A program made the position numbers and the translations under genes. DNA of 64,000 nucleotides from Kappaphycus alvarezii (lineage: Eukaryota > Rhodophyta > Florideophyceae > Gigartinales > Solieriaceae). Location: contig NADL03000466.1 in assembly GCA_002205965.3 (NCBI GenBank), positions 124,001-188,000 of the forward strand, in the 5' to 3' direction. Positions 2,777-61,190 of this stretch are shown here, piece by piece. The notes beneath the pieces were generated by a model. The model did not search any database and was not told where the DNA came from. It saw only the letters and a program-made list of their open reading frames with translations. The first letter of the stretch is position 1. Each line of letters starts with the position of its first letter.

Positions 2777-2879
2777 GGTAAGGGTGTTGTGTTGTGTGAA
2801 TGTCGGCCTAGACTGTGATTCGTCTGAAGCTGGTTCGAAGGATGAGATCTAGCGAAGACTTCAGGGACCAGAAGTTGTG

Positions 2880-5110: not shown

Positions 5111-6250
5111 CTAAGCATGAAGATTCTGCATTTCGAAGACGCTACATTTCTTTCGCAATTTCATACACCTTGATACTTCTTTGCTAGCTCGCGTGTTTAC
5201 ATCACGATAGAAATGGACAACACATTCCAGCACTATAGAATTTATATGCACTTCCTGGGAAGCACCTGTGGCCTCGTGAAGTGCCCGTGCAATGCCTCCT
5301 ACCTCTACGGCCTCAAAATCTGTCGTTATTGCACGCAGCTCAACGTAGCGCTTATTGAATTCTATTCCCATTGGAATGTAAGGAATTTTGATTCGGCACC
5401 GATGGAGTCTTTCTTGTGTGGAGAAGTCTTCTTTCCGTTCTCTTGTGGAGAAATCTCCTTTCCCGAACTGGAAATAATATTGGAGCCGCATTTGCTCGAA
5501 AAACATTGACTATCCGGCTTGGTATCCATCAGCAGTTAAGCGAGATATTAAAATACGTGGTACCACGATACACCGAGAACTTCGACCCCCAACACTAGTT
5601 TCCCTTACTACAATGTTGTAAACAAACTACTTCCCGTCAAGTGGATGCCACCTATCTCTGTTCACGGCCTTATATGTAGCATCACCGGCTAAAAGAGAAG
5701 ACACTGCATCAACAATAAGAATTGATTCCAGACCGAGTAAAATAACAAAACCATTCTCGACTGTACGAAAGTCTCGAAGGTATGTATTTGAACGATCTGC
5801 CACAATATCAAATATCATGCGGATGCCATCTTTCTGTCCATTAATTTCCTGAGCGTTCTTCTACATGGTATGTAAGGCTCTACTAATGATCTCTACCTTG
5901 CTTCCATCGGATCCCTCATCCCGTACAATACAACTCTGTACTCTACGTTTGAGAACTCTAGCTCCCGTATCCAATGATTTCTGACACTTCACTGCGAGAT
6001 ATAGGCGCTTTGCGATAGGAACAGAAGAAATTTGGGGTACTGTATGTGTATGATGTCCTATTGCAACACTAAATAATATTTGGTCTTCCGAAACAGCCTT
6101 TTCACAACGTTGCGACTCAAGAAGATCAATGTCCTTCGTAACCACAACGCGCCTGAACTAATCTTCTTTTTCAAAGGTATACATCCAGAAAGAACATTTG
6201 TCAACATCTACTATCGAATGCTCGCACACTACACATCTAAACTCTCGAAA
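5111..6250 (-). pseudogene. MULE-like transposase remnant
   Basis: One minus-strand frame spans this interval with in-frame stops (among them near 6146-6160, at 5861-5863 and at 5627-5629) and no frameshift. Read in order it shows a Cys/His-rich N-terminal part (CVVCEHS, then GHHTHT), as in the FLYWCH/WRKY-like domain that precedes MULE transposases; a core resembling the MULE signature (GLESILIVDAVSSLLAGDATYK, compare W-x-DGTFK, where the first catalytic Asp is the D of GDATYK); and further on AITTDFEAVEVGGIARAL, resembling the conserved TDFE-x-A block with the second catalytic Asp, followed by ECVVHFYRDV, which matches the downstream C-x-H block. The third acidic residue is not located. Superfamily assignment is from motif order and spacing. 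It appears to sit inside copy A of the antisense gene. Confidence 0.6.
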
Positions 6251-7130
6251 ACTCACATTATGGATCCTAAGAAGATGCGGGGAAGATAGAAAAGATGCAC
6301 CCCGCGACATAGGGAGAAGGACATAGAAATGTTGATTCGGGTGCTTTGGGTACCACCGATCGATCTGCAAAATAGCTCCCCTCTCGAACTGAGGTGCCTA
6401 CCAAAGGTCTCATAAACGACGAGACTATTTCAGCTCTCCTTTCTAAGGTTGTGCTTTGACCGGACTATGGTCAACGTATCCAGGAGGTATCTTGTTGAAT
6501 GAGAAGTTGTAGAGATCGATGGGATGTTTTTGCTCCGTCTATTCATCAACGCCGTAGTATTTCCCCACTGAAAGTTCACGGAAATCGCGCGAGGCCCTCT
6601 AAAACTTGGAGATTATCCAAGAGAGAAACTCCGGAAATTCCATATTGTCGTCGTGATAGCAAATAAACTCCGTCAAGCTTAGTAGAATGGGAAGATCCCC
6701 ATCGATGCCCTCGTCACGTTTCCTCCGAGGCCGCAAAATGTGCTAAATTCTGTTCACAAAAGACAAAATGATCCCGGTGTGATACCTTCGCAGACGCGGG
6801 ATCCCATCCTTGGCACCCCCCAAACGAAGTGCAAGATCCGATGTCGTGAAGGGACTCTTCCTGCACTGTCGACTTCTGGATCTTGATTTTGTCGGGCATA
6901 TTCGAAAATGTAACGACATTTCTTATACTCACCTTCGCATGGGGCTTATTAACGATGAAACTTTCGGTAGTCCGGTACGATTGAGACGGAGAAAGACTTC
7001 TGGCCGGAATGACTGGATTTTCCGGGGGAAAAGGTTCGCCCGCCGTTTTGCGAGCTGCTTTCTCCATCGAATTTCGACGAGACGCCCTTTTTCCCGTTGA
7101 TTTCTTCGCGTTTTTGTTTGTCTTCTCTAT
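6251..7130 (-). pseudogene. Antisense H3-tail-mimic gene, copy A, N-terminal part
   Basis: The minus-strand frame from 7130 to the TGA at 6714-6716 is open. Its first 29 codons after the ancestral start align gap-free with the histone H3 tail: H3 residues T3, A7, K9, S10, T11, G12, A15, R17, K23, A24, A25, R26, K27 and A29 are identical, so both silencing lysines (K9, K27) are kept. The initiator is ATA (7128-7130), apparently a mutated ATG; the next ATG is at 7067. Downstream, in another frame (6713-6430), the segment MEFPEFLSWII ... DLYNFSFNKIPPGYV matches copy B (LEFPEWIISAV ... SLYTFSFNGLRPGYV), and 6370-6260 (QHFYVLLPMSR) matches copy B (WHLCVLFLMSR). The gene then runs into the MULE remnant. 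Function is unknown; the H3 resemblance is seen directly. Confidence 0.75.
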
Positions 7131-23943: not shown

Positions 23944-25464
23944 TCAATTCTCTCCCGTAAATTCTTCTTTTCGAATAAATAGCGAGGAGCTTGATGTGTG
24001 GTCACCAGCTGTACCTGTCTTGTCCACAAAAATATACGTGGAATTAGTCAGCGCAAAAATCTCCTCGAGAGATTCTCTGGCATGTGCTGAATAGTTCTTC
24101 GCTGCAAAATTCATTATGAGACTCGCTAAGTGCATAGTATGGATATTTAAATCTTCCCTATTTCGCGCGAGCACTTCCCTGAGGACGAATTTCGAGGCGT
24201 TGGATCCTAAGATGAACGAGGAGTTAAGTTTTTCGAAGTCAACGACAGATGTTGTTTTCATTCATCCTTTTGGAGCCTCGAACGCCTCCGAAATCTCCTT
24301 AGTCAACCCATACTACTTGTTATTTTCCGAGGTTATAGCATGTAAAGCCGCGAGTATCTCAGCTGATCTCTTGATGAAAAGGTAGTAGTAGCTAACGAGT
24401 CCAAGTAACCTTCGCAGCTCGTTCATGTTCTGCGAAATCGGAGAATATTTGATGGCCTTAATCTTTTCTTCGCCCACGTCAACTATGCCCTTTTGACTCG
24501 GCGACCGGGACAATTAAACAATTTTTGGCGCATTCACATTTAGTGGCTTCTATTTTCAAGCTGGCCTTCGCTATAGTTTCGAAATGCCGCGCAGATGGGT
24601 AGATTGCTTTTCTGCCGACATCGAGAGATCTTCCAAGTAGAAATGGATTAAGGGGATTTCCCGAAAAAAGTATTACAACACGGGTTGAAATGTTAGCTGT
24701 TCATTAATAATAGCGCAGGGCATGACCTCTTATTTCAAAGTCTCATAATGAAAGATAAATTTTATTTTTTCTTTTCACTAATAGCTCATTAACGCTTCCT
24801 AGTATCCTGCAAACAAGGAATGCTAGTAAGAAACGAGCTTAGCTTCAAGTCGCTAAATATATCTCCCACCTTTGAAAGAGGGGAGCGGTCGGATTGTTTT
24901 GCAATTTATTGTAAGAAGTCGACAAAAAGATAGGTATTGCGCCATTTACTGTAGCAATAGCCACAGAAAAAAAACATTTGGAAGAAGCAGGGTCAAGATT
25001 CCAGCATATAAGGTTTTTACATTCTCAACGGACCCTCGTGTTGTAGATCGGCGCCAAGAGCACAGAGGAAATGAAAAGGAAGGTAGATAATCAGTTATTT
25101 ACGCGAGTATTCCAGTATCTTGGATAAGGTCGCTGATTCGCGCCTTTTATTGTTCTTTGACATGTGATAGAGCATCCTGTACCACAAGGATCTTCCTAAA
25201 GAGCTTTTTAGACGACAGGGCCATCTCATTCAGTTGCATCTTTTCTATCTCGAGCTTTCTTGTCTTCGTGACCTATCTAAATTCTCCTTCTGAAGCGCCA
25301 AACGTTTTGGGTTTCGCGTTAGAGTCAAATGTAAAGTCCTTGCCGGGAATTCCAGTTTCATTACCATAATCCGTCATCTTCTTGACATATGTAGTGTCTG
25401 AATCGAGCAGAAGCAATTTTCTGGAACAAATGTGAAGGCCCACGCGCTGAGCTCCAAAATACAT
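23944..25464 (-). pseudogene. Gypsy fragment of the Gypsy-2/3 lineage
   Basis: Minus-strand pieces in Gypsy order: at 25464-25273 DFTFDSNAKPKTFGASEGEFR, matching the protease-RT linker of Gypsy-2 (GFTSDSNAGPESSEYSE); near 25100 LIQDTGILA, compare LQDTGIIAWEI in Gypsy-2; at 24513-24313 KIKAIKYSPISQNMNELRRLLGLVSYYYLFI, the end of RT; at 24261-23944 FILGSNASKFVLREVLARN and ASLIMNFAAKNYSAHARESLEEIFAL, the RNase H. The central RT, including the YxDD box, is not recognisable. Heavily decayed and internally deleted. Confidence 0.65.
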
Positions 25465-28439: not shown

Positions 28440-29245
28440 TTTTTGATATTGCATAGTTCCGGATAAATTCAAGACATCAATCGAGAGGTTTAAGTATCAT
28501 CAAAATGTTCAGATTGGGCGGCTCACTGAATCAAATAAGTAGGTTTAAATTGGTCTTGTAGTGGGAATAAGTGAAAAAGCCTTCAAAAGGACTATTTATG
28601 GCGAAAATCACGTGTATAAATCTTGACTATGGCCAAGATATTAAGGGTCAAAGAAGATCGTATAAACGGATAAAAATAAAAGAGTTACTTTCGATGGAGG
28701 AAGCAGGCGCATTTAAAAAGAGAAACGTGAAAAAGAAAACAGTATAAATAAATTTAAATTTCTTCACGTAAAACAGAATAAAAGTGGAGGGAGAAACAAA
28801 GGGAAAGGAAGTGAAGATATAAACGTAGCTGGAGGGGATTTCTGTGCATAAAGGGATTATCTTCAGTTTCTCTTTTAACATATATCATCCTGGAATGTTA
28901 AGCGTTAAATGAAAGTGTGGCTTAGGTCTTCAAAGGGGTATATACAGAGTTGCTTTTCGTTATTGAAGTGTGTCAAAACATACCGTATCATTGAAATATT
29001 TGACTGTATAGGAACAGTACTGCCATCCAATGTTACTGGAATAAAGGCCATTTTATTAGAAGTGCTACAGTACAGTATCCGGTATAGTTATTGCATCCTC
29101 TTTGTTGGCCTTTTTGATCAAAATTTTTGAGACATTTCCAATTTTGTTGTGAATGTTTCTCATTTTAAAATTATAAACTTTGCAAGTTTTGTGTCTTAAT
29201 TTACTGTTTCTCTCAAATCATAGGAAAAAACAAAGCGAGTTCCAT
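28440..29245. other. No recognisable gene
   Basis: AT-rich, short frames only. It abuts the Gypsy-2 5' LTR. Confidence 0.35.
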
Positions 29246-29575
29246 TGAGAGATTTTGGAAGCTTCCATAAAAACTCTCCAAGATGTCAAAGATGAGTGAT
29301 TGTATGCATTTTTCTATTTCTACGCTGGCTTGGGTTGAAGACTACTGCAGCCAGGCTTTTATTTTTGTTACTTTTATCTATTTTATGGTTATTTTTTGAA
29401 TTTCTGTCTCCACTATTCGTGGCCTGACGTGAAGCTACCACAAACTCGCGGTCGCCGTATACATCCCTACCGGGCAGGCAGGGGTCGGAAAGGAGGACAG
29501 ACAGCGAGGGCGAACTTACCAAATCTTGCTTTTTATTTTTTTCTTCTCTGCCACTCCCTATTTCGGTGAGTAAAA
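29246..29575 (+). repeat. Gypsy-2 5' LTR
   Basis: Starts TGAGAGATTTTGG and pairs with the block starting TGAGGGCTTTTGG at 37073. Shared words run in the same order: AGATGAGTGATTGTATG, ACGCTGGC(T/C)TGGGTTGA, TTTTATGGTTATT, GCTACCAC, CCTATTTCGG. It ends just before TGGTACTACTG, a candidate tRNA primer-binding site at 29576-29586. Confidence 0.8.
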
Positions 29576-29586
29576 TGGTACTACTG
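29576..29586 (+). promoter_or_regulatory. Candidate primer-binding site of Gypsy-2
   Basis: TGGTACTACTG directly follows the 5' LTR. TGG at this place pairs with the CCA end of a tRNA in LTR elements. Gypsy-3 has TGGTACCGCATG at the same position. The tRNA cannot be named. Confidence 0.5.
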
Positions 29587-31269: not shown

Positions 31270-34160
31270 ACACAATGGATGCCGAGAAAAGGCTGGCTGA
31301 GAAGGAATAGATGATAACTCCGAGCGAAGGTTTCACGTCTGATTCGAACGCCGGCCCCGAATCGTCGGAATACTCGGAAGATAAACAATCCCCGGCCGTT
31401 CCAGAAATCCCACGTGAAGAAAAATTGGAAGATCCGACCAGCGGAGGTAGCTCTGCCGCTGGTAAGGTTCAAGAGGGTGAAGTCCGAGGTGCGCTGAGGG
31501 CAAGTTTGGCACATTTGCAGGCGAAAACGCAGATGGAAATCAGTAACTCCCTGCAAGACACAGGAATAATCGCATGGGAAATCAATTAAACCTGCCCGGC
31601 ACCGATTACGGTAGAACGCATGTTCGAAATGAAGGACTCCGCTCCAGTTTATCATAGCACTCGACTTCTGACACCCAGCCACAACAAAACTTTCCGTCAG
31701 GAGATCCATTAAATGCTAGAAGCAGGTATCATCACCCCCGTTTCTTCCGTTTGGACGTTTTCCGTCGCCATTGCGACGAGGAAAGATGTGAAGCCTCGAT
31801 TTATGTGGACTACTGCACCTTGAATCCTAAGATGAAGGGCGACTGTTGATCCTGCCAAAGGTAGAATAAATTAACTCGAAAGATTAGAGGTTTGCCCAGA
31901 GTTTACCAAACGTGACTTATTCGCCGGGTACTGGCAAGTCCATATAAGCGAGGAGTGCAAGTAAATCACAACATTTTTTGTCTTTACAGAACATTTAAGT
32001 TTGAGATCATGCCTCTCGGTCTGATGAGTGCACCGTCGATTTTTCAACGTATTATGGACTACATTCTGCGGAACTTTCCTTTTGCGCGCCTTTACCTTTG
32101 TGAAGTAGTAGTGTTCTCGCATTCGATGGAGGAGCACGTCTATCACTAAAACATTTTATACTAAAGGATACAGAAGGCCTGATTGAAGCTCAAGATTACT
32201 AAATGCGAGTTGGCGAAGCCGATGGCTAGCTTGCTTGGACATCTAGTAGACAAAGATGGAGTTCACGTCGATGAAGACAAAATTAAGGCGATCAAGGAGG
32301 CTCCAGAATGAAATTGTACGACCGAGCTGCGAGGCTTCCTTGGCCTGGCAGGCTAATACCGCCGGGTCATTAAGGAGTTGGCAGAAGTCTTCACCGCCCT
32401 CCGTTCTGCAGCTTCTGGAAGCAAGGAATTCGTCTGGATGAGAGAAATGATGAAATGGTTTCAGAACCCAAATGAAAAGCTTTCATTCCCACCGTTCCAA
32501 CATTTCCAGACTTCGAAGGGCAGTTTATCGTTGGAACAGACCCCTCAAGCGTAGCTGTTGGAGCGGTCCTAGCCCAAGAGAAGGAGAATAGGAAGATACA
32601 TTCATTAAAATTAGCAAGTAAGACTATGAATTCGGCGGAAAGGAACTATTCTGAATGCAAAAGAGAGACCTTAGTGGTTATTTTTGCACTCAAAATGTCT
32701 CGGGTACATTTTTATTTAAAACACCATTCAAACTGGTGACCGAACAACAAGAAATCCCTTATTCTTTCAAGAAGATTGATGTTTACGGAAAGCTAGCGCG
32801 CTGGTTGGATTTTCTATCCGAATACGAATTCGAGATGGAATACTGTCCTGGGACTGGGAACAGTGCTGCCGAATACCTTTTGCGGGTGGTAACGGACGAT
32901 TATTCATCCGCATCAGATGTTGAGGAAAATGTTTTGGTGGCAACTACAGGTTCCTTTGGCACTGTTGCCAATCAGACCATATTGGAGTCTCATTTAGTCG
33001 ACGTAGTCTTCAGATTTCGGAGCAGAACCATGTGAAGCGTCGCTCTATTAAACATACCGCGCATTATTTCATGCTCGGTGAAGCTAAGTTGCTCAGGCGC
33101 ACTAAGAACGGTCTTCATACGATACCGAACATCAAAGAAAGTCCGGCTATATTGAAGACTTTTCGTGACTATTTCTGTCATTGGAACACGGAAACAACGA
33201 AAAGTTTCGTTGTTACTCAATTTTGGTGGCCCTTAGTCTATCTAAACATTGAGTGATACGTTAAGGGCTGTAAAGTATGCCAAAAAGCTGGCCTTTTGAT
33301 TCCGTACCGCAGAACGCTAAAGATTCCGTTCAAGAACATCTTCTAAACATACTAGATTAACTTCGCAGGGAAATTCCCGAGGTTTAATATGAAAAATAAA
33401 TTACCTCTTATTGCTGTAGAGCATCTGATAATATGGTAGATCACAGCTGCTATCTTGTCAGATGCTTCTGCGGAGTTTGTGATCGAGTTCGTGGAAAGAG
33501 AGATCATCCCTGTATTTAGGCCCTCAATGGCTACCATTTATGACAATTATGGTTGTTTCGTAGCCACCGCCCTCCTCTATTACATGAAGTAGAACTGAGT
33601 AAGGTGGAACAAAGTGCTTGCTAACGTCCTTACGTCGAAAGGCCGCGCTGAAAAAGTGGTTCGCACTATCCAGACCAGAATTAAAACGCTTTTCATCAAA
33701 CAGGAGGCTGATTGTGAGTATTTTCTCCCATGCACCTTATATAGATACCGCTTCCGCCCTCTACAGAAGGGCACTTCGCCGCTAGAGCTCATGTTCGGGG
33801 TCGCGCCGTGGATGATTATGTCTGTCAAGGTCTCATTGGTACCGACAGTTTCGGAAGAACAGCACCGACTATAAATTCTAGCAGGACTGGCCGTACGAGC
33901 GACCATGCTCGATGTGCAGTTGCAACGTGGTGGTGACGAAGATGGACCGGGGACCACGACGAGTTTTAATGTTGGTGACTAGGTCTTAGTGGCACACGGA
34001 CGGGCCTTAACTTCTACGGACAAATGGCCCACATTTCGCTACCTTTCTTCCTACCGTACGGAGTTTGGATGGCAGCTCACTCAAGATACTGGCTCACCGC
34101 TTACGGTGGCCGGTGCTCCAGGGAGATACTCATGCTCCCCGCCTGTCATTCCTAAAAATT
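31270..34160 (+). pseudogene. Gypsy-2 pol: RT, RNase H, integrase
   Basis: In order: linker GFTSDSNAGPESSEYSED and LQDTGIIAWEI; RT start HNKTFRQEIH and AGIITPVSSVWTFSVAIATRKD; FKFEIMPLGLMSAPSIFQRIMD; then LYLCEVVVFSHSMEEH, where the catalytic Y-x-D-D is gone; LLGHLVDKDGVHVDEDKIKAI; RNase H-like SVAVGAVLAQEKEN and KTMNSAERNYSECKRETL; RLARWLDFLSEYEFEMEYCPGTGNSAAEYL; integrase zinc end H...H...CKVCQKAG; LPLIAVEH; the core YDNYGCFVATALLYYM; and the tail VLVAHGRALTSTDKWPTF. Parallel to Gypsy-3 throughout but far more decayed. Confidence 0.8.
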
Positions 34161-34559
34161 AATTTCTAAAGCCTTCCTTTAAACAGCATCTCCTAGTTTT
34201 TATATGTCAAGCTACGAATTTTCGGTATATAGCTGTTTTCTACATCATTTGAGTACAATCTGAATCTTCTGATTGCTTTGTATACTCTATGGCGCTCATT
34301 CTGCAATAAAGGAGGCCATGCAGGAGAACATTGGGAGTACCCATGAGAAGAAGGCGGTCAACGTCCAGAAAGGCCTGCACTGGAACGGTTGTGATCAGGG
34401 GAAGGTGCCACCAAGATCTTTGAACGGCAATTATAACGCTTTTTTGCCGGAATGTGACGATTTGTAGGGAATAGTCGACTTTCGAAGAGGAATGCTTTGG
34501 CCACTCAGTGGAACTATACGGGGCACATCGTCCATTTTCAAATAATCTGCCGGATCTTC

Positions 34560-36790
34560 TTCACCTCAACATAGCTTGAGGGACGCCTGGGAGAATGGCA
34601 TGGCGAAATTATCGGCGCAATCATAGATAATTATTGGCTCCTCTCTCGTATCGATGCAGATAGCGTGCTGTGACCCAAGTCGCCATATAACTGCCGCGAC
34701 ATAAATTTCACGGTCAGAAAAACTAGGCAAGCTATGTACCCAATTTGCATAAAAAGATTACGCCACCTCACGACTAAGGCTGCTCTTGGTGCATTCGGAC
34801 GAGCCCCTGGCTGGCTTAATGTGGCAGAGGACCACAAGATACGAGTATACTTCATATAGGCTCTTTCGAACGTCGGCGAAGGTAAGAGACCTTGGAAAGC
34901 AGCAAAGCTGCTCCATGCTATCCTGGTTGCAAATGTAATCCATGTTCCAATAATTATCCGCCGGGTCTGGGCCAAAGATAGGGGAGACAGCGTTCGAGAC
35001 TGCGGCCTGCAGATAGCGCCCCTCGAAGTCTCGGAATCTCACGACTTGATCATTGAAAAGATGGAGTGAATAAAGGGGAGAAGGTATCCTCGACATGAGG
35101 AATAGCACGCATAAATGCCAATTCGGATTCTTTTGACACCAAAAGTCAATCTTCAAGATAACACCCACTCTTGAGATCAGAATCCGACCAGAAATCTCAT
35201 TGTTGATTCTATCATTCGACCTCTTCTCGTAAGTTGCGTTTCGAAGAATTTTGGTGGACGTAACCTGGACGTAAACCGTTGAAGGAGAAGGTGTAGAGAC
35301 TAACAGGATACTCTTCCTCGGTATCTTCGTTGACTACGAAGTACCGGCTTTCAGAACTATCCCTGACTCCGTCCGGAGCACTAAAAACTACAGCCGATAT
35401 TATCCATTCAGGGAATTCCAGGATATTTATGTGGTCAAAGGCGTCAGCCAGCGACTCTTTTAAGCTCAGCCGCACTGCAAGATCCCTTTAGATGTCTTCT
35501 TCACACTAATTTGCAGCTATGAAGTTCTCTATATTGGTATCGAACATAGTTTACAGTTCGTGATAGAAAAAAGTCTCCTCTTTGGTGCAACGGATGACAA
35601 AAAACAAAAACAACAACCAACAGCGGCCAACCTGATCTGCTAAAAATGAGGGTGTCCAACTCCATCCTCTGGTAGCAGCTCGAACAGAGGGCGGGCGGTA
35701 GCCGCGGCGGTGGTGAAGACTTGTACGACCAGGTCGATAATGGATGCCACTCGGCGTGTGGTGTAACTCTCATCTGTCCAGCAGAGACCTACCTTCGTAG
35801 AATAGATTACGCCGACTTCTTGAGGGACTTACAGTGGTCCCGTCGATACCTTGAAACACGGTTGAAACCTTACCGAACCACAAGAACCCCAGCAGGATCG
35901 CCGACACAACACTACCTCGGTTCGTTGCTCGCTTCAATCACATCCCCGCTGGTAATCCTGCGCACGCACCCCGGCACGTAACGTCACCGGCAGCGGTCGT
36001 AACCTTCCTCGATGGAACCAGCGCTAGTTGATAACGGAAGAGACGAAACAGAAAGGGATGAAGGGGTACCAAGGATTCCGCGCTCCTCAATAGGCGATTA
36101 TAGAAGGGAATAATGGATCGATAGAGTGGAAACCATAACGGGTCGGGTGATCATTTAGGTTCAAAGTGTGACTCTACACTCGAAGGGGAGTAGGGTGGGG
36201 TATTGGACCTTATATTTACATAGTCTTCCCTTGTTCGCCGCTAGCTCAGGTGAGCGTATTGCAAGCATCCAATATGGGTACAGATCTGATATATCATAAG
36301 CTACCCTAAAGAGGTATAGCGCCCTCCATAGACCGTGCACGCATACCATGCGCTGTAGGACCCCCTCTGTAGGGGATCACCTTACACTGGCTCCACTAAT
36401 GGCGGGGCTTGGAGGTGGGTCGCCATTTGTGCACTATATTTTCAAGCCGTTTCTCACTCCTTGGAGCCGCGAATCGAAAGTCAGAATGAAAATTATTTGA
36501 CAATTTGCCTCTTAACTCTTCATTTCTGTATCTTGATTGTGTCTGATTGTCTAAAATACAAGGTGAAATTGCGTTTGCTGACATGCGCACGGAGTCTATC
36601 GCAGTAGAAATATCAGTCCAGTACGCCTCGGACGGCGAGCTGGTTGTTCTCGGATGACTGAGTTGTCGTGCGGCAAATATTCGCTGCGCGTCTTACAAAC
36701 TGCCTTTTGCCAAAGAATTTTTCGCGGTAGCTTCCTCCCTGTAGATTCTTTCGCAGCTTGGTTGGTCTTCGCCATCTTAGTGGCCCACAT
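34560..36790 (-). pseudogene. Antisense H3-tail-mimic gene, copy B, inside Gypsy-2
   Basis: Start at the ATG 36773-36775, 298 bp inside the 3' LTR start and opposite to pol. Residues 2-29 align gap-free with H3: A1, T3, Q5, A7, S10, T11, G12, K14, P16, R17, K18, L20, K23, A24 and K27 identical (15 of 28); K9 is Glu. Later parts are frameshifted: 36590-36396 (RYRNEELRGKLSNNFHSDFRF), 35475-35212 (LEFPEWIISAVVFSAPDGVRDS ... PVSLYTFSFNGL), 35168 onward (NPNWHLCVLFLMSR, VVRFRDFEGRY), and at about 34700-34590 the C-terminal QHAICID ... IIIYDCADNFAMPFSQASLKLC. This last part matches NHCMAIN ... CRIFHPAEAYAPLLSAESLTEC of copy C. The H-x3-I-[DN] pattern resembles the His region of papain-fold cysteine peptidases; that is a suggestion only. 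Confidence 0.8.
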
Positions 36791-37072
36791 AGGTATTTTT
36801 GGATGGGTCTGATATCATCAAACCACCCTTTCTTAGTAACACGAATGGAGCAGTCCCTGAGGGCTTTAGCTGCCCTGAATAAATGTGTGTTCGGAGAGGA
36901 GACGGCGCTGTGCAGAAGGAGGCGTTCGCTGGAATTGTATGGGGTGCCTTTTAGGGAGGTGAGTTTCGATGTTTGCACGGGGTGACGGAAAAGATAGGCA
37001 ATTAAGCTCGAAGATCGCCCCAGCCAGACGTTCCTTGGGGCGCAAGACTTCCATCTATGGATAAGGTGGTAT

Positions 37073-37709
37073 TGAGGGCTTTTGGACGCTTCCAGTAAAC
37101 TCTAAAAGATGAGTGATTGTATGAAGGGTTTTATTTCAACGCTGGCCTGGGTTGATGACCACTGTAGTCAGGCTTTAATTGTAGTTACTTTTATATATTT
37201 TATGGTTATTGGTAATTTTTTTCGTCGCTATTTGTGACCCAACCTGACGCTACCACACACTCGCGATCGCCATGTAATCCATCACCGGGTAGGCAGGGGC
37301 TGTAAATGTCGCGTGATACACTACAACACTCGCACGAGACCCGTGTTTTACAATCAAAAGGTGGTTGCGGTTTCGTGTAAGGGATTTAACAGAGAGACGG
37401 TAACTTTAGGAAGGAAAAGGACGGGGCCGAGCTGAACGAACGGCGTGTAGAGCTAGACTTTTCGTAGTCGAGAACTGAAAACCTCTGTGCCTCCCGGTAG
37501 AGAGACAGGCAGTGAGGCCGGCGCTACAGTATACTAATACGCGGCAACGGATCCGGCGATGCCACGACGGCGGCGACGGGTCTCACTGCGATGAACTAGT
37601 TACAGTCCACTGTAATGACATGAGCGGAGGGCGACAGCGGATGCGAACCTACCCACTCCTTTTTTAAAATTTTTTTCCTTCTCTGTGCTTCCTATTTCGG
37701 ACAGCAACA
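37073..37709 (+). repeat. Gypsy-2 3' LTR, with an extra internal segment
   Basis: Matches the 5' LTR at both ends (37073-37310 and about 37655-37709, ending CAGCAACA) but holds about 340 bp more in the middle (37310-37655), which includes ACAGTATACTAATACGCGG and CACTCGCACGAGACC. Either this segment was inserted here or it was lost from the 5' LTR. No 5-bp target duplication is seen at the outer ends of Gypsy-2. Confidence 0.75.
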
Positions 37710-37880
37710 TGCTCTATAGTTTTTTTGCATACAGTACAGTACCGTAGCTATTGATTTAAAATTACAGTGCCTTCGACGGGCAACGGACATAGTATATTAC
37801 AATAACTGAATCACCCTCCAAGCCACCTTTTGAACAGGCATAAAAATAAACACGGGTAAAGTACAGTACAGTACTGTTTC

Positions 37881-50108: not shown

Positions 50109-51785
50109 ATGCCTAGGCCTGCGTTTGCAGGGGCAGCAGTCGTAACGGGTTCACACCGTGGCACTTGGATTTCATCTGCGGAATCGGCAGTGAAAACGTT
50201 AAGGCTTCAAGGTTCGCGTTTCCCGAAAGTGGGTTTCCCATTATCTTTCACCACGCAATGCAGGATGTCGTCCGATTCTTCCCAACACATCTCCCAATCT
50301 ACCGGCATAGTTATCCCCTCCTGGGATATGCTTGCTCATATGACTCCCCATGAGGATTTCGTAAATGGGCCTAACTGTTCTACCCCACGAGTGAACTTCA
50401 ATCAGTTCGCCTCTTTGGCAGAAAAGATACCGAGCTTCGTCTTGTGCTCTACCGTGATCACGCGAGTTGGTGCCCGTACTGTCACAAAGTTCAGATGCTT
50501 ATCGAAGCAAAGCGTATTCCTTACGTCATCAAAAAGGTTAACATGAGTTGCTACGGAAGGAAACCTGACGAGTTTCTCAAGCTTGTCCCATCGGGTCTGT
50601 TACCGGTCATCCAGTTGGACGGTGTAACAGTTACCGAATCAATGGATATCATGTTTCTTCTGGAAGAAACATTTCAGACCCCTCACCGGAAGATGATTCC
50701 GACGGAGGACAGCGACAAGATGCAGGCCTTCCACCGGTACATGAGGCTCGAGCGGGTATTCACCGGTGCCTGGTTGGGAAGCCTCAGAGGGCCACGCGCC
50801 CTTACTGCGAAAGGGCTGGAGGCCATGCATCAAACCCTAGACATTTTGGAGAGCTGTCTGGGAGAGTATTCCGGCCCGTTTTTCTACCCGGGAGACGAGC
50901 CATCGTTCATTGATCTTAACTTCGGTAAGTAGCTGGCCGTTTTATTTGTTTGAGATATTTGCGCAACTGGTTGAGCTGCTTAAAGTCCCATGTTGAGTCG
51001 AACTTGCATCCAACCCGGTGCGTGTATGACTCCGCCCTTCCCGCAAAAGTTACGATTGCTGGTCAGGAAAGAATCAGCACGCTTGTAACGCCCTCCTAAC
51101 AATGTTAATCGCCATCTTGTTTACTTTCCGATTTCATGTTTATCCCGCTCGTTACGGTTGCCGATGGAAACGATTATCGTCCAGCTACTATCTTTGAACG
51201 CTCCAGGTCAGCCTTGAAGTTCTGGCGCAATCTGGAAATCACTGACGGAAGGCGAAACTTGCGACGTTGGTTTGAAGCCTGGGAAATATGGGATCCTGCT
51301 ATCTATCTGCGCAGCGATGACTGGACGCATGTTGGAGCGCTCCCGCCTCAAATTGGGCCTGTGAAGTTTTTGAGCGCTAGATCTGGCATATCAATTGGTA
51401 TCGAAACTGAGCGTGCACGACATGTGCTTAGCAGTAGCCCAGAGGATAACACGGCACGGAGCCAAGCTGGTACCGCAATTTGCCGCAACCACCCTTGGTT
51501 GTACAAGACGCAATCAACGGAGTTCAAGTCCCCGAGCACGACCGGCCTTTCATCGACACTGCCTTCCGCATCATGGCCCACGTTTTGCTTGATCCCGGTG
51601 TGATTCCAATCTCCGAAGTCCGTTTGAAGAAGGAGATTCCAATCAGCTCGTGGTCAATAGTTGCAAACGCTATCAGGTTTGAAAGGGCACGTTGCTGTGC
51701 CCCTCGAGACATGTCCATCCTGGCAATGAGGCAGTTTTGCGGTGCAGCTAATTGGGTAATACGCGCCCTTGGCCAAGACCTTTGA
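50109..51785 (+). pseudogene. Glutathione S-transferase, one intron, frameshifted
   Basis: Two possible starts: ATG 50109, which gives an N-terminal extension with AFAGAAVVTG that could be a targeting peptide, or ATG 50265 (MSSDSSQ), which fits the family better. The frame reads IPSWDMLAHMTPHEDFVNG and then must shift near 50390 to LFGRKDTELRLVLYRDHASWCPYCHKVQ, the thioredoxin-fold start with a CPYC active-site motif. It continues VPSGLLPVIQLDG and TESMDIMFLLEE (glutathione-binding Glu-Ser) to DLNF. GTAAGT at 50925 and an AG at 51183-51184 define an intron of about 260 bp; joining restores DLNFATIFERS. Exon 2 gives DDWTHVGALPPQIGPV. The end lies in a third frame: INGVQVPEHDRPFIDTAFRIMAHVLL ... 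APRDMSILAMRQF. Two frame changes indicate a decayed gene, though missed introns are possible. Confidence 0.85.
50925..51184 (+). other. Intron of the GST pseudogene
   Basis: Donor GGTAAGTAG, acceptor CGTCCAG. Removing it joins G to CT to give Ala, restoring the conserved D-L-N-F-A motif before the C-terminal helical domain. Confidence 0.8.
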
Positions 51786-52769
51786 GTACTAGATTGTTAG
51801 TTAACGTTGCTCTCCCATGCTGAGTTAGCTTGTCATGCCACACGAGCGACGACTGCGGAAAGTTTATTGTCACAATGCGCTTGCCCTCGATTTGTGGTGA
51901 CTTGCAAATGATAGTAAGCCTAAAGGTGTGGGTCAAGGTCGGGGAAACAAATGTTACCAACTCGGAGGGTCAACAGGTGCAGTGATCCTTTCCGTCCGGG
52001 TCAATTGTTGAGGTCAAACTCCAACGCTCGTTCCACACTGTTAATAGGTAGGCTTGTGCTCGCGTTGTCCCCTAATATTTCTCGAGGTGTGTTATGCGTC
52101 GCTCCGAGTCAGCGATCGAGGGGCCACGCCCAATCTCAGAATAGTGTCTGAAGAAGACTTTCTACTCGAGGTCCGGCGTACTCCGCACGCACTGACGCTG
52201 CCCAAGTGTCAGCAAGTAAGAGCTCTCCCCACTTCGTCATGGCGCACACCTGAAGTAACGTAATCGTCCCTTTTCCTTTCTGCAGGCATAGTTTACGCTG
52301 GACAGCGGGAATTCTTCAAGGTGGCCGCAACGTGATTCATCCCAATGGGTCAAACCACGGTAAGGGCAGCCTCATTGGTTTCACCATCATAAGTAGAGAC
52401 TCTCCAGGTTGAGCTACAATAACGGCAGATTCGCTGGGAAAGTTATCGCCACACCTCGATTCGGAAAGCAGTTGAACTGCTGTCAGCTTTCAGTTGAATT
52501 GGAAAGCATTTGAATAGTTGCGTGGTCTGGTGAGTTGGGTTTCTGCCGGCCTCTTCCTACAGCAATACAAGTTGGGTAAAAATTATACATTTTCAAAGTT
52601 ACAAAACGCCATATCAACATCAGGGTAGTTGATGGGTTCCAGTATTATTGCACGGGGATCATACTATGTATTACTGTAGGTGGGGTCTAGCTCGAGATTA
52701 CGGAGGCGAGGTCTAATTTGCGTAGCTATTGATCCGGTACCGTAGAACCAAGTGGAGGAACATTTTGTG
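51786..52769. other. No recognisable gene
   Basis: Short frames only. This is host or older repeat DNA up to the Gypsy-3 target site. Confidence 0.35.
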
Positions 52770-52774
52770 GTGTC

Positions 52775-53022
52775 TGTGGAGTGGTGTATTGTGCACCACA
52801 AAAGTCACGAGTTAGGAGATACTGTACGCCTTGATTGGTAGGGCGTACAGTATCTTTCGGGGGAGCTCCCGGTACCTCCAAGGGAGGTGCGGCCAGGTGA
52901 AAGATACGGTGCAGTACAGTATTGTAAGTACTATGCTGTGCTCAGGAAGAAAAAGGAAAAGGGGGAAGGTCACGCTTGACTTCAGGACAAAAAAAAGTAC
53001 AGGACAGTTACAAGTAATTTCA
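52775..53022 (+). repeat. Gypsy-3 5' LTR
   Basis: 248 bp, TG...CA ends. It shares with the 3' LTR ACCACAAAAGTCACGAG, GGAGATACTGTA, CCTTGATTG(G/T)TAGGGCGTACAG, GGTGAAAGATACGGTGCAG and AAGTACTATGCTGTGCT. Followed at once by TGGTACCGCATG. Confidence 0.9.
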
Positions 53023-53048: not shown

Positions 53049-54867
53049 ATGACGGATTCCAACCCCGCTCTCCTCTCTTTTGACAGATCCCCATCTTCCT
53101 ATATTACCCGTTTCCTTTTTGCGTTTGAAAATGTGGTCATGCGCGGAAAAACGGACAGCGAGAATGCCCTCCAGATTCTTTGCCATTTGGAAGGGGTTGC
53201 TTTTTGACTTTTACTACGAGTCGTTTGCAGAGGAAGGTTCCCTTAAAGAAGAGTACGATGTCGTGAGGAAGAATCTCCTCGCCGAGTTCGCGAAGAAGAC
53301 GAAGCCGGATGAGGAGGTTCACGAAGCCGTTGCCGCAGGTCTAGACGGTAGAGACATAGGGGGTCTTTTGCGCGAATGGATGCCCTCTACAAGAGGGTAG
53401 GCTTCTACGTAACGGCTTTTTGGGGTTACTTCGGAGTTTGTCACGTACCGAGCACCGTCGGACTACAACGAACTTAGGAAGGCAATTGAAGACTTTCAGG
53501 TGGGAAAGAATCAGGTGGGAAAGAAGGAATTGTTCGCCAACAAGGAGGCGGCTCGAGCGCCTTTGATCGCTCCGAGGAGGATTCTGCAGAGGCCTGACGC
53601 GCACGCTATCAAGCCACACCAGCTGGAGGGTAAGGTTGAACAGCTAGCGGGGCAGTTTGCAGAGTTTTCTCTCTTCGTGAAGAAGCAGTTTGAGAAGGGA
53701 GGACCTGCCGCTATAGTCGATGACGACTTTAGTTACATTTTCTGTGGGCAAAGGGGCCACCGTGCCACGTAGTGCCAGGAGAACCCTTACAGGCACACTA
53801 AGTGCTCTTTCTGTGGGAGAAGAGGCCACTCCGAGGCAATTTGTTGGTCCAAGGCACAGCAAGAGGGAGATGGTCGTGTAGGAATTGCCGGAGCAAGTTC
53901 GGAGTCGAAAGAAGAACATATACTGAGGGAAAGGAATGACGACGAGTCCTTAGTAGTCGTGCAGGAGGCTCGCAAGGGCAATGTGATGGCCGCTGCAAAG
54001 AGGAACGCCGACGGCCAAGCCCTTCTGAAGCAACGTAGGGACAATGTTATGTACATCGATGGGCTAATGAATAATGCCCCTCTCGTTCGGCCGCCTATGG
54101 TCGTAGCGGAGCCAAGGAAGAAGAAAAATAAGGCAAAGAAGACCAAGAAGGCATCGCCAGTCCTCCAGGACCACGTAGGGAAGTATAATGTGGTCGCTGA
54201 ACTGGCCTCGGCCTCGTCGGGAATGAACTTCGGGCAGCTTCTCCGTGGAGACGCTGATGAAGCGAGGAGGCAGTTGAAGCATATGGTGTCCAAGACTGTC
54301 ACGGTGACTCATGTGTCCATGAAAAGTCACCGCGAAGTCTCTTGTCTATTGAAGGTCGTGGCCGTGAAGTCTTATGGAACGGAGACGCACGCTCTGTTGG
54401 ACACGGGTGCAGTTCCAAACCTGACGTCTTGGGAATTTTGCGAGAGGCTGGCACTTACTCCGATGGCTACGGATCGTCAGGTCACCGTCGCCGATGGAAC
54501 GGTGGCTGAAGTTATGGGATGCGTACAGAAGGTTCCAGTCTCCTTTAAAACCCTGGTGGTTCCTCTGGCTTTTTTGGTGGTACGGAACGCGCCATCTCAC
54601 ACTATTATTGGCAGTCCGGCATTGGAATACATGCAGGCAAACCAAGATTACGGGCCGCAGCAGGTCATTCTGGCAGTCGGGAGGAAGAAGGCTCTTTTAC
54701 CGCTACTAGGTGAGCCCCCAGTAATTGTCGGATGCGTACTGACAGTGAGGATTTCACATACCCTGGAGAGTCGGATGGAGAGAAGTTTCCTGCTTCGTCC
54801 TCCTCAGGGTCAGGCTGCAGCGATGGTGGGTCCGACACCGGGCATGAATTGGCGCTGGCGATCTTGA
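53049..54867 (+). pseudogene. Gypsy-3 gag-protease
   Basis: ATG at 53049. The first 52 codons (RFLFAFENVVMRGKTDSEN) are in frame 3; one extra T in the T-run near 53205 shifts to frame 1, which is then open to 54867 apart from TAG 53398-53400 and TAG 53770-53772. Two zinc knuckles: the first, near 53745, has its first Cys as Tyr and a TAG where Gln is expected; the second, CSFCGRRGHSEAIC, is intact. A basic RKKKNKAKKTKK block precedes the retropepsin, with an intact active site ALLDTGAVPN near 54390 and IIGSPALEYM downstream, where the ILG/IIG flap-partner motif is expected. Makes the RNA-binding particle protein and its protease in live relatives. Confidence 0.85.
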
Positions 54868-57601
54868 AAAAGGAGCCGTATGAGCCCGATTAAGAGGACC
54901 TGAAGTTGGAGGAAGGGTCCACCGTGAAAGATGAGGAAGCGGATCACGCCTTATTTCTTATCTCGAAGGTGAAACATCTCGAGGAGAACCAGAAGAAGTT
55001 GGTGAGTGCACTCAAGGAGACGGACGTGAATGCTTGGGACATTCATGATTTGGAACCAGCCCAAGTGCCGGTGCGGCACCCTTTCGAGCTGGTTGCCGAG
55101 ACGCAGATACACTCGAAGCCTCTTCGGATGCCTCCGAAGCATAAGCCATAGTTAAGAAAGAGGTGGGAAAGCTACTGGAAGCTGGAGTTATTACGCCGTC
55201 GGGTTCCGCCTGGTCCTTTCTGGTGGTTATTGCAACGAAGAAGGACGGGAAACCCGGGTTCTGCGTTGACTACCGCCAGCTGAACATTGTCATGAAACCG
55301 TACCTTTGGCCGTTACCGAGGATCGGGGAGCTTTTCGTTGAGTTGATGGGCGCGAAGGTCTTCACGACACTGGATCTCTATACAGGTTAGTGGCAGGTGA
55401 GGATGGCCGATGTCTGTGAGGAGAAGAGCACGTTCGTGTCTCGATACGGAACATAAAAGTTCGAGGTGAGGCCGTTCGGACTGATGAATGCATCCGCAAC
55501 ATTTCAACGCATGATGGATGAGGTTCTGGGTGATTCACCGTTAGCTATGGTGTATGCGGATGATATGGTGATCTTTTCCCAGACGATAGAGGAGCATCTG
55601 GACCATTGTAGGAAAGTGTCCGAGAGGATCCAAGAGGCTAGATTGAAGCTTAATGCGACGAAGTGCAGCTTCGCGCAGTCAGAGGTAAAGCTTCTCGGTC
55701 ATGTCGTAATCCAGGCGGGTGTGAAGGACGACAAGGACAAGACCAAGGCAATAGTAGAAGCCCCCGCTCCAACGAATGTGACAGAGTTAAGAAGCTTCCT
55801 TGGGTAGGCAGGGTACTATCGGCGCTTTATTAGGAACTTCCCCTATAGTTCCGCAGTGCTGCATGCAGAAACTTCGTTGAAGAAGGCTTTTGAGTACCTA
55901 AAAGAGAAGCTGACATCGCCTCCGGTGCTTTCGTTTCCGGACTTCGGCTCACCTTTCATAGTGGAGAAGGATGCGTCTCCGGTTGCTCTCGAGGTATTCC
56001 TCTCGCAGAAGGAGGACGGGAAGGTGCACCCGATACAATACGCCTCTCGGACCATGAACGAACAAGAAAGCCGCTACTCCACGAGCGAGCGAGAGGCATT
56101 CGCAGTGGTCGTCGCGCTGAAGAAGTTCCGAGTGTATCTGATTTCTGATAAGCCATTCATCGTGTATACGGACCATCAAGCTCTCCAGACTGCTTTTAAG
56201 AGGAATTATATCCACAGGCGGTTGGCGAGGTGGATGGATTTGATGGCCGGGTACGATTTTGAGGTTAAATAACGGCCTGGTTCGGCGAATGGTACGGCTG
56301 AATATCTGCCGAACACCACTGTTAGAGCTTTAAAAGGTACAAAAGGTGAGGAAGGGAACATCACGGAGGGGTTGGTGGCCACTGTACTCTGGGCTGACCC
56401 CAAACTGTCAGGGCTAGAACCACATTTGCCGGATGTTGCGAGATTCTTATCCGGCGAAAGGGTGCAATAGACTGATTCGAAGAAGATGCTTTCGATCAGA
56501 AGGGGTGCAAAGAAGTTCATGCTATGGAGCGATACGTTGTTCCGACGGGATAAGGACGGACTATGCGTCGTCCCACCTCTCGGCTAACGGAGATACTGAC
56601 CATCTTTCACGACGATATATTCAATTAGGATGTCGCGTCTACAATGAAGTTCATAAGGGATCAGTTCTGGTGGCCGAGGGGTATACCGCGATATCACGGA
56701 TTATATAGCGGCCTGCGACGGTTTCCAACATGCCCGCAGACCCCCGACGTACCATACCAGCCTCAGGACTCCCGTGATCGGGCTGTTCGAGACGTTCTCG
56801 ATTGAGTTCGCGGGGCCGTTTAAGCCCTCTAGGGCAAGGCAAAAGCTCGCGCTAATCGCGGTGGAACACATCACCGGATAGAGAATCGCTTGGGCCACTA
56901 AGGACGCTACGTCGAGCACCGTCCTCCGGTCTGTGGAACAGGAAATCATTCTGCCATTTGGACCGCCGAGAAGGATAGTCTCGGACAATGCAACAGCCTT
57001 TTTGGCGACTTCCGTCCAAGAGTTCATGGAAAAGCATGGAATTGATTGGAAGGCCGTCCTTCCGTACGCCCCGATGGCAAATGGGCTGATCGAGCGGATG
57101 GTGGGGAAGCTGAAACACGCTATCAAAAGGTCTGTTGTGCAAAATTGTGGTGACTGGGCGGAAGCCGTGCCTAAATTCTTGTATGGCTATCGCCGACGTG
57201 CTCGTCGGGGTATAGCTCCCCCTTTCCAATTGATGTATGGGATAAACCCAAGGATGATGGCCAGTGATGCAGTGGCACTCCTCAACGAGGCCGATACGAG
57301 GCACCGCCTTATTGGGACGTTAGGGGAGTCTGGATTGAGAGCGGCTGTAGTGGAAAGGTCACGCATCACGCGTGAATCCAAGGGAAAGGAAAGATTCTTC
57401 GAGGTTGGTGAAGAAGTACTGGTTGGGCATGGATCGGCCCTGACTAGAAACCACAAGTGGCCCGCTTTCGATTCGTACTACTATGGTCCTTGCGTGATCA
57501 TCAAAGCCAATCATCCGAGATACGAGCTGAGGTATTCGACCGGGAGGGTCACACGCAGGGCGATCCACGCCCGACGGCTGCTTGGTTATAAGAGGGCGTA
57601 G
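54735..57601 (+). pseudogene. Gypsy-3 pol: RT, RNase H, integrase
   Basis: An acidic Ser-rich linker in frame 3 (TDSEDFTYPGESDGEKF) leads, after a shift near 55153, into RT: VKKEVGKLLEAGVITPSGSAWSF, FCVDYRQLN, RPFGLMNASATFQRMMD, VYADDMVIF (catalytic YADD at 55553-55564), LLGHVVIQAGV. RNase H: KDASPVALEVFLSQ, YASRTMNEQESRYSTSERE, YTDHQAL. Integrase: TIFHDDIF, WWPRG, CDGFQHAR (last Cys of the zinc site is Phe), FSIEFAGPF (first catalytic Asp is Glu), VSDNATAFLAT (second Asp), LIERMVGKLKHAI (Glu). Stops at 54891, 55149, 55388, 55454, 55805, 56270, 56468, 56626 and 56879; compensating indels near 56580 and 56680. Ends GYKRA, TAG 57599-57601. Confidence 0.9.
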
Positions 57602-57919: not shown

Positions 57920-59084
57920 TTACTGCACTGCGCTGGGGAACAAATCAGCCGTGGTTTCTCCTTTATTCTCCTTCTTACGCCTCCTCCTCGATTTCACCTT
58001 CCCGTATCGAGGGCGTTTTGACGCAATTCCGCTGAGGACGGCGACGCATCTTACATCGCGCACTGTGTATAAATCTGAGTTTTCTCCTACACATTCGGTC
58101 AAGGATTCGGCCGAAAGGAGGGGCGCATAGGCTTCTGCGGGGTGGAATATGCGACACGATGTCGCATTAATAGCCATGCAATGATTCACACCGTTGGAGC
58201 AGGATAGTGTGACGAGATGTACTCCCTCATCCAGGCTTAAAACTTCGGGGAGCGAAGGTTTCAGAAGGAAGACGTTCTGAAGCACTAAGTAAGAAAGTAG
58301 GACACCCAATGCTGCGCTTGTGGAGTTTCGCCGAGTTCTACCAATTCGTTCCCTAGAGAAGCCCTAATACATCCGTCGGCCTTATCCGTAAAGGGGACCT
58401 TTTGGAGGGGAGAAGATCGATAACGTGTTGCGTCCAAACGAGACTCGCGGGGCGGGTGAAGGAGAGATCGAGCTTCCGACCTGGGAACTTCTGACACCAT
58501 TCATGTATGCTAAAGATGGCTAGAAGACGATCCGGTCGCCCAAGGATGACTCGGGTACCGGAAAAAGCGGCATCTTCTTCTCCAGAAAATCCTTCAAACG
58601 CCATGGTATAGAGGAGAACCGGGTGCTCCATTCCAGTCTCAGCATCAGTGGCCAGTTAAATTCTGGTGCGAGCGAACCAATATATGTCCCTGATGCACCA
58701 TGCTGAGTCAGGGACTGAGGTGTACGAGTGCAAGTCCTCCAGGGATTCGGTAAGGCCAAGACAGTTGGCCTCATCTCGAGTAAGTTCCCGGCCGTTCGCA
58801 TGTCGCACGAAGACGGTCAAGTGAATCCCGAATAGGGCCTTGTGCTCATCCTCAGTCATGGCGGCTGGGTTTGGGGCCCCTTCGGTGTAAACAGAAAAGT
58901 GGAGAGTAGTTCGGCTTCAGTAGATGATTTTCACAATGTCCCGACGACCACGAAGCCGCGAGACCTCAGGGCGAGAAAATGCCCCCGCATTGGTACGGAA
59001 AACACGGGCGGCCTTGGTCGCGATGGCAGCGCGAGGAGCTCGCCCCGCGGTGCTGAGCGAAGCTTTTTGTCTGTTGCGTGCCAT
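57920..59084 (-). pseudogene. Antisense H3-tail-mimic gene, copy C, inside Gypsy-3
   Basis: ATG at 59082-59084. One frame runs to TAG 58353-58355 with only TGA 58917-58919 and TAA 58656-58658 inside. Residues 2-27 align gap-free with H3 1-26: A1, R2, Q5, A7, S10, T11, G13, A15, P16, R17, A21, T22, K23, A24, A25 and R26 identical (16 of 26), but K4, K9, K14 and K18 are replaced. Then RPEVSRLRGRRDIV, an acidic start EDEHKALFGIHLTVF, CIRDIYWFAR and VLLYTMAFEGFSGE, comparable with the middle of copy B. Frame changes near 58450-58310 reach ADGCIRASLGNELVEL (possible catalytic Cys region) and NGVNHCMAINA (possible catalytic His), then a basic end KRPRYGKVKSRRRRKK, NLS-like. Convergent with pol; 318 bp between the stop codons. 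Function unknown. Confidence 0.85.
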
Positions 59085-59472: not shown

Positions 59473-59767
59473 TGTGGAGTGGCATATTGTACGGTACAGT
59501 ACTGTACTGTACAATGCACCACAAAAGTCACGAGCTAGGAGATACTGTAGGCCTTGATTGTTAGGGCGTACAGTATCTCCCGGGGGAGCTCCCGGCACCT
59601 CCAAGGGAGGAGCTCCCGGTACCTCCAAGGGAGGAGCTCCCAGGTGAAAGATACGGTGCAGTACAGTATAAGTACTATGCTGTGCTTAGGAAGAAAAAGA
59701 AAAAGGGAGAAGGTTACGCTTGGCCTCAGGAAAAAAAATTAGTAAAACATACTTACAAGCAATTTAA
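59473..59767 (+). repeat. Gypsy-3 3' LTR
   Basis: 295 bp; longer than the 5' LTR because of a TACGGTACAGTACTGTACTG palindrome at 59490-59512 and extra copies of a unit of about 24 bp (GAGCTCCCGG(C/T)ACCTCCAAGG) at about 59585-59645. It ends AATTTAA where the 5' LTR has AATTTCA, then GTGTC. Confidence 0.9.
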
Positions 59768-60839: not shown

Positions 60840-61190
60840 GCCGCAGTGTGCTTTTGCATGAATATTGATAGGGGTAATCCGTCCGGGAGAAGAGATACTA
60901 AGAAACAATTACCCAAGAAAGAGGTGTTGCAAGCGACAAAAGTGCTACCGTGGTATAGTTCCGCGAGCCAAAAGAGGTGGCTAAGGACAAAAGTTGGGAG
61001 GGCTACAAGCAAGTATAGAAGGGACAAGGTCTACCACTGATGCTCTGTGACCAGCGTAAGTAAAACGGTTCTTGGGTCTGAAGTTTACTCGCAGCTTCCT
61101 ACTACTCGTGTCTTGGCTTGAAGTTGTCTACCAACTTGCTTGACCTCCACAAGGGGAAGCAGTTTACTTAGCGTACATAAACTTTTTGGC
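60840..61190 (-). repeat. U1 repeat, conserved 3' part, copy 2
   Basis: Reverse complement of the 13180-13550 repeat (see there). Both lie downstream of their acidic gene at similar distance. The plus-strand frame 60574-60861 overlaps it and is not supported as a gene. Confidence 0.65.

Follow-up and report, generated by a model that had tools for sequence, protein, structure and literature searches.

The window, i.e., the whole stretch of 64,000 nucleotides analyzed, harbors copy C, a minus-strand gene whose predicted N-terminus resembles the tail of histone H3, and two further genes with such a tail, referred to as copies A and B. The positions of these genes and of the elements carrying them are summarized in Table 1. 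Copy C is located between the integrase gene (plus strand, ending at 57601) and the 3′ LTR of a retrotransposon, and copy B has the equivalent location in another element.

Table 1. H3-tail genes and parts of their carrier elements in the window (positions counted from its first letter).
Feature	Position	Strand	Evidence or remark
Copy A body piece (P0006), broken	6239..6718	-	Collinear with copy B, tblastx E 2e-32
H3-tail look-alike, copy A	7041..7130	-	tblastn with H3, E 4.9e-4 (7124-7041), 50% over 28 aa
5′ LTR, element of copy B	29244..29577	+	
RT, RNase H, integrase, element of copy B	32006..34036	+	RT 49% identical to that of copy C over 113 aa
Copy B body pieces (P0002, P0005), broken	34509..35505	-	
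H3-tail look-alike, copy B	36689..36775	-	tblastn with H3, E 2e-4, 55% over 29 aa
3′ LTR, element of copy B	37071..37711	+	About 320 bases of other sequence within
5′ LTR, element of copy C	52752..53020	+	77% identical to 3′ LTR, gaps counted
gag/protease part, element of copy C	53773..54864	+	CX2CX4HX4C knuckle and DTG motif by eye
Reverse transcriptase fragment, element of copy C	55466..55807	+	RVT_1 E 6.5e-19
RNase H, element of copy C	55856..56272	+	RT_RNaseH E 1.6e-33
Integrase C-terminal part, element of copy C	56933..57601	+	rve E 8.6e-5, rve_3 E 3.8e-5, both under the curated cut-off
Antisense accessory gene, copy C (broken): H3-like tail, body, basic C-terminus	57920..59084	-	Frame reading and relatives
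Copy C C-terminal part (P0003), shifted frame	57923..58363	-	GVNHC...IFHP motif and basic end
Copy C body, middle part (P0004), with stops	58353..58916	-	Collinear with copy B, sequence comparison
H3-tail look-alike, copy C	58968..59084	-	Aligned to H3 1-39; 16/26 over residues 1-26
3′ LTR, element of copy C	59474..59765	+	

The carrier elements and the H3-like tail

Direct LTRs were found at both ends of the elements carrying copies B and C, with 192 of 249 positions identical between 29244-29491 and 37071-37306 for the former and 228 of 295 between 52752-53020 and 59474-59765 for the latter. Since the members of these pairs differ by about 23%, gaps included, both insertions appear to be old. 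The order protease, reverse transcriptase (RT), RNase H, and integrase on one strand was recovered by Pfam for the element of copy C and by tblastn for that of copy B (RT at 32006, integrase at 33491-34036), the DTG motif of the protease being recognized by eye only. The Ty3/gypsy-like assignment of both elements is based on this gene order and the LTRs. The earlier note on this DNA had described the gene as borne by a retrotransposon, which is supported by the LTRs, RT, RNase H, and integrase surrounding copies B and C. No match of the pol pieces of copy C was obtained beside copy A within the window, and the left part of the element of copy A may lie outside the window or may have been lost.

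Other features were also observed in the window. A short imperfect palindrome around ACAGTATCT is located at 59539-59580, inside the 3′ LTR of the copy C element. An open frame at 50375-50929 (plus strand) encodes a glutathione S-transferase N-terminal domain (GST_N_2, E 1.4e-18), probably representing a host gene or its remnant adjoining the element. Furthermore, the 275 bases at 13213-13487 recur in inverted orientation at 60912-61186 (81% complementary); with blastn, the similarity spans about 720 bases at 72%, and this pair represents another dispersed repeat. RT and RNase H remnants of other elements were found at 17432-18216 and 24400-24726, both on the minus strand.

The minus-strand frame of copy C starts with an ATG at 59084, begins with MARNRQKASLSTAGRAPRAAIATKAARVF, and comprises 55 codons followed by TGA. 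The gapless match of its residues 1-26 to H3 residues 1-26, with 16 identities, was reproduced as originally described, and none of 200,000 shuffles of these residues gave 16 identities (maximum 12). For copies A and B, 12 and 14 identities over the 26 residues were counted. A comparison with shuffled sequence had been named beforehand as capable of refuting the resemblance; the local alignment score of copy C against H3 (82) lies far above the shuffles, none of 20,000 (54 residues) being as high (maximum 62). When all 2152 stop-to-stop frames of at least 20 aa in the window were scored against H3, copies C, B, and A reached 87, 71, and 68, the next frame scoring 40. Likewise, tblastn of H3 against the window recovered copy C with E 1.6e-6 and copies B and A with the values given in Table 1, all on the minus strand, followed by a match with E 2.6. 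In a phmmer search of the PDB with the 55 aa of copy C, the best 60 of 117 sequences (E ≤ 10) were all H3 or H3 variants (best E 3.8e-4), and the same was true of the best 60 of 114, 125, and 144 sequences obtained with other tails or whole proteins. The H3 N-terminal tail sequence is thus present in copy C, as seen from the PDB matches and the shuffle test, and was also recovered in the profile searches with the family; the H3-like tail of copy C is confirmed as real.

Downstream of the tail, copy C is decayed. Its tail frame is interrupted by stops at codons 56, 143, 244, and 249, and the basic end (57920-58309) is read in a different frame from the tail. Near 58289, copy C does not contain a stretch that is found in its relatives (of the 14 loci matching both sides, 13 have 84-88 bases here, and locus L006 has 71), and past this gap its reading goes on in another frame. 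Over 122 aa, the C-terminal part P0003 shares 71% of its residues with P0007, a reading of L006. Copy C is collinear with copy B along three stretches (E 1.5e-4), and the bodies of copies A and B are homologous. The description of a retrotransposon gene that joins an H3-like tail to a non-histone body and a basic end was borne out, and this architecture is also kept in the relatives.

Relatives in the genome and in protein databases

Further copies were sought in the 336-Mb assembly of 884 contigs that contains the window. The DNA of copy C matched at least 46 places on at least 28 contigs, and 26 of 28 matching contigs were read. This yielded 19 further C-type loci (L002-L020). Integrase matches antisense to the gene occur in 18 of them and LTR matches in 15; 14 loci have both, with the antisense integrase on one side and the LTR on the other. 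Every genomic copy read is broken by stops or shifts. The start codon is not ATG in copy A (ATA), in 2 of 17 C-type copies, and in the distant locus L024. L018 (G000:C786) and L019 (G000:C27) share the same tail reading, match lengths, and identities, and thus represent haplotypes or an assembly duplicate.

Three loci were left out of the tail alignment, which comprised 17 C-type copies including copy C. Among the H3 lysines, K23 was retained in 16/17 and K4 in 14/17 copies, and K9, K14, K18, and K27 in none, the usual letters there being L, R, A, and V. Other H3 residues were widely kept, namely S10 (17/17), Q5 and A25 (16/17 each), A24 (15/17), and T3 and T11 (13/17 each), with G12 found in only 7/17; R8, K9, K18, and K27 are replaced by neutral residues. 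The earlier note had stated that K4, K9, K14, and K18 are replaced and K23 is kept. K4 is indeed replaced in copy C; however, because 14 of the 17 aligned copies retain it, its replacement in copy C is, as judged from these alignments, decay of a single copy, and K9, K14, and K18 vary by lineage.

Six distant loci (L021-L026) feature 39-54% body identity to copy C. All of them have an H3-like tail (tblastn with H3 1-60, E 1.2e-8 to 0.019), which in L022 is present from residue 14 on only. In four of the six, the opposite strand yielded a strong integrase match; near L025 and L026, the integrase search gave a best E of 0.33. The tail of L025 retains 18/26 H3 residues, including K4, K18, and K23. 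In this locus (G000:C467), the tail and body start occur twice in opposite orientation (2536-2870, plus strand; from 3988 downwards, minus strand), representing an inverted duplication of the gene start.

For protein-level relatives, a profile of five family proteins was run against a database of 5.8 billion proteins, with scoring limited to the 7997 candidates that had most words in common. Two proteins, P0022 and P0023, were obtained. P0022 is identical to L026 in 178/178 positions over residues 29-206, and P0007 to L006 in 166/166 positions; because of this full identity, both are regarded as originating from this or a very near genome and were rejected as independent relatives. P0008 has no such full match among the loci and is 45% identical to copy B. 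Hence, only P0023, known here from the predicted protein alone, was counted as coming from elsewhere. It is a stop-free protein of 416 aa from an 8874-base ENA record, with 30% identity over 97% of the query. Its tail shares 21/26 residues with H3, K4, K9, K18, and K23 being present and K14 replaced by R. Its body identity is 16-30%, and among the matches listed between P0023 and the loci, none exceeded 43%. The H3-like peptide is located at the chain terminus in copy C and the C-type tails; in P0023 as predicted, 16 residues precede the tail methionine.

Several other searches were carried out. A viral contig match to P0023 (L027) was dismissed as chance, as it comprised 40 aligned columns (E 0.003) on a contig that is GC-rich and contains long frames resembling those of phages or bacteria. 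None of the 636 candidates from a protein search with the broken copy C alone reached E ≤ 1. Viral contigs searched with P0001 and A3, and genome contigs searched with P0007, gave pattern matches and no relative, and phages searched with the integrase piece gave no match.

Comparison across the tail types revealed that K4 is present in three of the four D-type tails reaching this position and is N in the A, B, and E types. K9 is missing from the C, D, and E types and present in copy A and P0023; K27 is missing from these three types as well as from P0023. K23 is retained almost always and is therefore the sole near-universal modifiable lysine, K4 being N in the A, B, and E types. Overall, the most widely kept tail residues are S10, T11, K23, and A24, followed by T3 and Q5 in most tails and K4 in some lineages. 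The earlier note had named intact relatives without the tail as evidence against its proposal: none was seen, the loci matching up to the gene start carry the tail, and a single full-length stop-free relative was found. Tail-less copies are few and broken, since only L015 and L020 (2/20 C-type loci) match from a point past the tail and L022 from residue 14. In summary, old Ty3/gypsy-like lineages carry an accessory gene of about 390-400 codons, antisense to gag-pol, between integrase and the 3′ LTR. The accessory protein opens with a stretch resembling the H3 tail (from residue 1 to about 26-35), continues with a body without detectable histone fold, and has a basic stretch at its end.

Body of the protein and probable selection on the tail

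Pfam gave no meaningful match for the tail piece or any body piece, and no significant match for the body was found in the PDB, where among the matches listed only H3 appeared; for P0008, the best PDB match was pseudoazurin (E 0.067). By eye, the second half of the copies contains a DGCIGASLGNAL stretch, an NHC stretch, and LLDP, and P0023 shows NLC, LHTV, and LDC in the same order. The order C-H-D is that of papain-like peptidases. The structure prediction for P0023 had a mean pLDDT of 43.8 and was too poor for a fold search, with blocks at about 321-360, i.e., the strands around H and D, reaching 64-72. A cysteine-peptidase-like C-terminal half is accordingly a guess from motifs, and the possible peptidase region of the earlier note stays at that level, given the absence of significant Pfam or PDB matches for the body and the poor structure model. 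The protein ends with a basic stretch in the copies and in P0023.

A degenerate histone fold in the body had been suspected by eye and was rejected by profile comparison. Columns 1-54 of the family profile align with H3 in hhalign (probability 95.9, E 5.4e-9). For the part following the tail, the comparison with the H3 core gave a probability of 0.1, which is below that of the control with the C-terminal half (0.5), so that no histone-fold core was recovered there. In hmmsearch with the family profile, the best H3 stretch corresponds to columns 1-39.

Constraint on the tail was evaluated from 26-41 codons of related sequences. Between copies A and B, differences upstream of the ATG are even across codon positions (13/15/14 of 36 each), and in the tail they amount to 14/13/23 of 41 at positions 1/2/3, representing a third-position excess. 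The corresponding dN and dS values are 0.41 and 2.38 for the tail and 0.51 and 0.56 for the upstream stretch, with 0.55/0.76 and 0.61/0.55 for the other two frames. For 42 between-type pairs (11 tails, five types), a mean pN of 0.37 and a mean pS of 0.81 were calculated, with 9.9/9.3/18.5 differences of 26 at positions 1/2/3. Of 15 protein pairs compared, 13 were more similar in the tail than in either part of the body; the pairs are not independent of each other, and those involving L022 cover 14 tail residues. For instance, P0023 and L025 share an identity of 0.69 in the tail and of 0.27 and 0.28 in the body parts. The two exceptions, with lower similarity in the tail than in the body, are D-type copies paired with L023.

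Among C-type copies alone, no significant constraint on the tail was detected (w 0.72, 95% interval 0.48-1.17); the values were 0.76 (0.60-0.93) for codons 2-139 and 0.84-0.89 for the upstream stretch. Such weak constraint is expected if most changes arose after insertion. Across lineages, the tail is saturated at synonymous sites with its amino acids retained and is better conserved than the body in 13/15 pairs; therefore, an H3 mimic fused to a non-histone body has probably been kept by selection.

Possible roles of the tail and comparison with known systems

As the match to H3 is gapless, we infer that H3 coding sequence was captured. The explanation that accounts best for the results overall, and to which we assign about an even chance, is that the antisense gene encodes a selected mimic that is taken for H3 and serves as a decoy or as a handle. 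Removal of the start methionine would expose a free H3-like N-terminus, the protein with its basic end would enter the nucleus, and proteins binding or modifying the H3 tail would take the mimic for H3. As a decoy, it would draw silencing factors off the chromatin of the element; as a handle, it would bring products of the element to chromatin. The cysteine-peptidase-like C-terminal half, if it is one, may act on the captured partner. K9 and K27 carry silencing methylation in many eukaryotes. Because neither is present in the C, D, and E types (nor K27 in P0023), although much of the sequence around them has been retained, we favor the decoy over the handle, with a docking handle for integration as its main rival.

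For the latter, a particle or integration complex would dock on H3-tail readers and steer integration without titrating chromatin proteins, the mirror image of chromodomain integrases. The presence of the gene in LTR elements next to integrase fits this tethering role, as does K4 in 14/17 C-type tails, in three of the four D-type tails reaching it, and in P0023. However, no chromodomain match was obtained in the integrase piece scanned (copy C), K4 is absent in the A, B, and E types, and the gene is antisense, so its product is made separately from gag-pol; on balance, tethering is rather unlikely. A more elaborate version of the decoy, which we consider unlikely, is a dedicated anti-silencing effector: a cysteine-peptidase-like enzyme would use the free H3 tail as bait and inactivate H3-tail-directed silencing machinery, e.g., ubiquitin ligases or readers gripping the H3 N-terminus and acting on K18/K23, with K23 as the contact that matters.

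Three further alternatives were considered. A piece of host H3 might have been captured once, fused by chance, and copied without use, in the way fungal hAT transposons multiplied parts of H3. Transposons are known to capture and amplify H3 (PMC6710886), no genomic copy read is intact, and the C-type copies alone lack significant tail constraint; such a passive passenger is nevertheless quite unlikely in view of amino acids kept across lineages despite saturated synonymous sites, a tail better conserved than the body (13/15 pairs), and the 21/26 H3 residues in the stop-free P0023. We regard as equally improbable that the tail is a plain basic one, used in nuclear localization or nucleic-acid binding and H3-like by composition only. 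While the tail is rich in K, R, and A and the C-terminus is basic as well, the gapless ordered match exceeds composition-preserving shuffles, and non-basic H3 residues are widely kept in C-type copies (Q5, S10, T3, T11, A24, and A25, with G12 in only 7/17). Moreover, the basic R8, K9, K18, and K27 are neutral in these copies, which does not favor a role based on charge only. Barely credible is a histone variant whose body is a degenerate complete H3: short stretches after the tail resemble H3 alphaN and alpha2/alpha3 by eye, but the H3 match is confined to columns 1-54 (1-39 in hmmsearch) and the post-tail part scored below its control.

Known systems resemble parts of this arrangement. Plant Ty3/gypsy elements carry antisense accessory ORFs between pol and the 3′ LTR, and the genes described here are similar in being extra opposite-strand genes at that place; we know of no such plant ORF with an H3 tail. 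Chromodomains read the H3 tail. In chromoviruses, which belong to Ty3/gypsy, a chromodomain is reported at the integrase C-terminus (PMC3605345). Both cases tie Ty3/gypsy elements to chromatin reading; in contrast to the reader of chromoviruses, the elements of this study have a copy of the tail itself, encoded by a separate antisense gene.

In influenza A virus, residues 226-ARSK-229 of the C-terminal tail of NS1 resemble H3 1-ARTK-4, and chromatin proteins of the host are reported to modify and bind this mimic (PMC10612106). Like NS1, the protein described here belongs to a genetic parasite and features an H3-tail look-alike. Unlike the four C-terminal residues of NS1, the look-alike covers about 26 residues at the N-terminus of an LTR retrotransposon accessory protein. 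In Dothideomycete fungi, hAT DNA transposons captured and amplified H3, with inactivated copies in Pseudocercospora and 94% of the hAT H3 copies in P. fijiensis matching the third exon only (PMC6710886). Here too, H3-like coding sequence resides in a mobile element in many copies. In the hAT system, H3 or parts of it are reported in a DNA transposon, with no fusion described in the passages considered, whereas the present genes combine the tail only with a non-histone body, reside in LTR elements, and show signs of selection; the carriers have LTRs, RT, RNase H, and integrase, and no hAT carrier was encountered. Among the entries listed by a literature search covering few subscription papers, none described an LTR retrotransposon whose own accessory protein is fused to an H3-tail look-alike kept by selection.

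Viruses are known to mimic histones, and DNA transposons to capture H3. Given its apparent retention by selection, the look-alike may serve the element to deceive or recruit chromatin machinery. A tail acting as bait would be a counter-silencing device of a genomic parasite. The variation of K4, K9, K14, K18, and K27 by lineage represents a natural experiment that may reveal the H3 residues required in a mimic of this kind.
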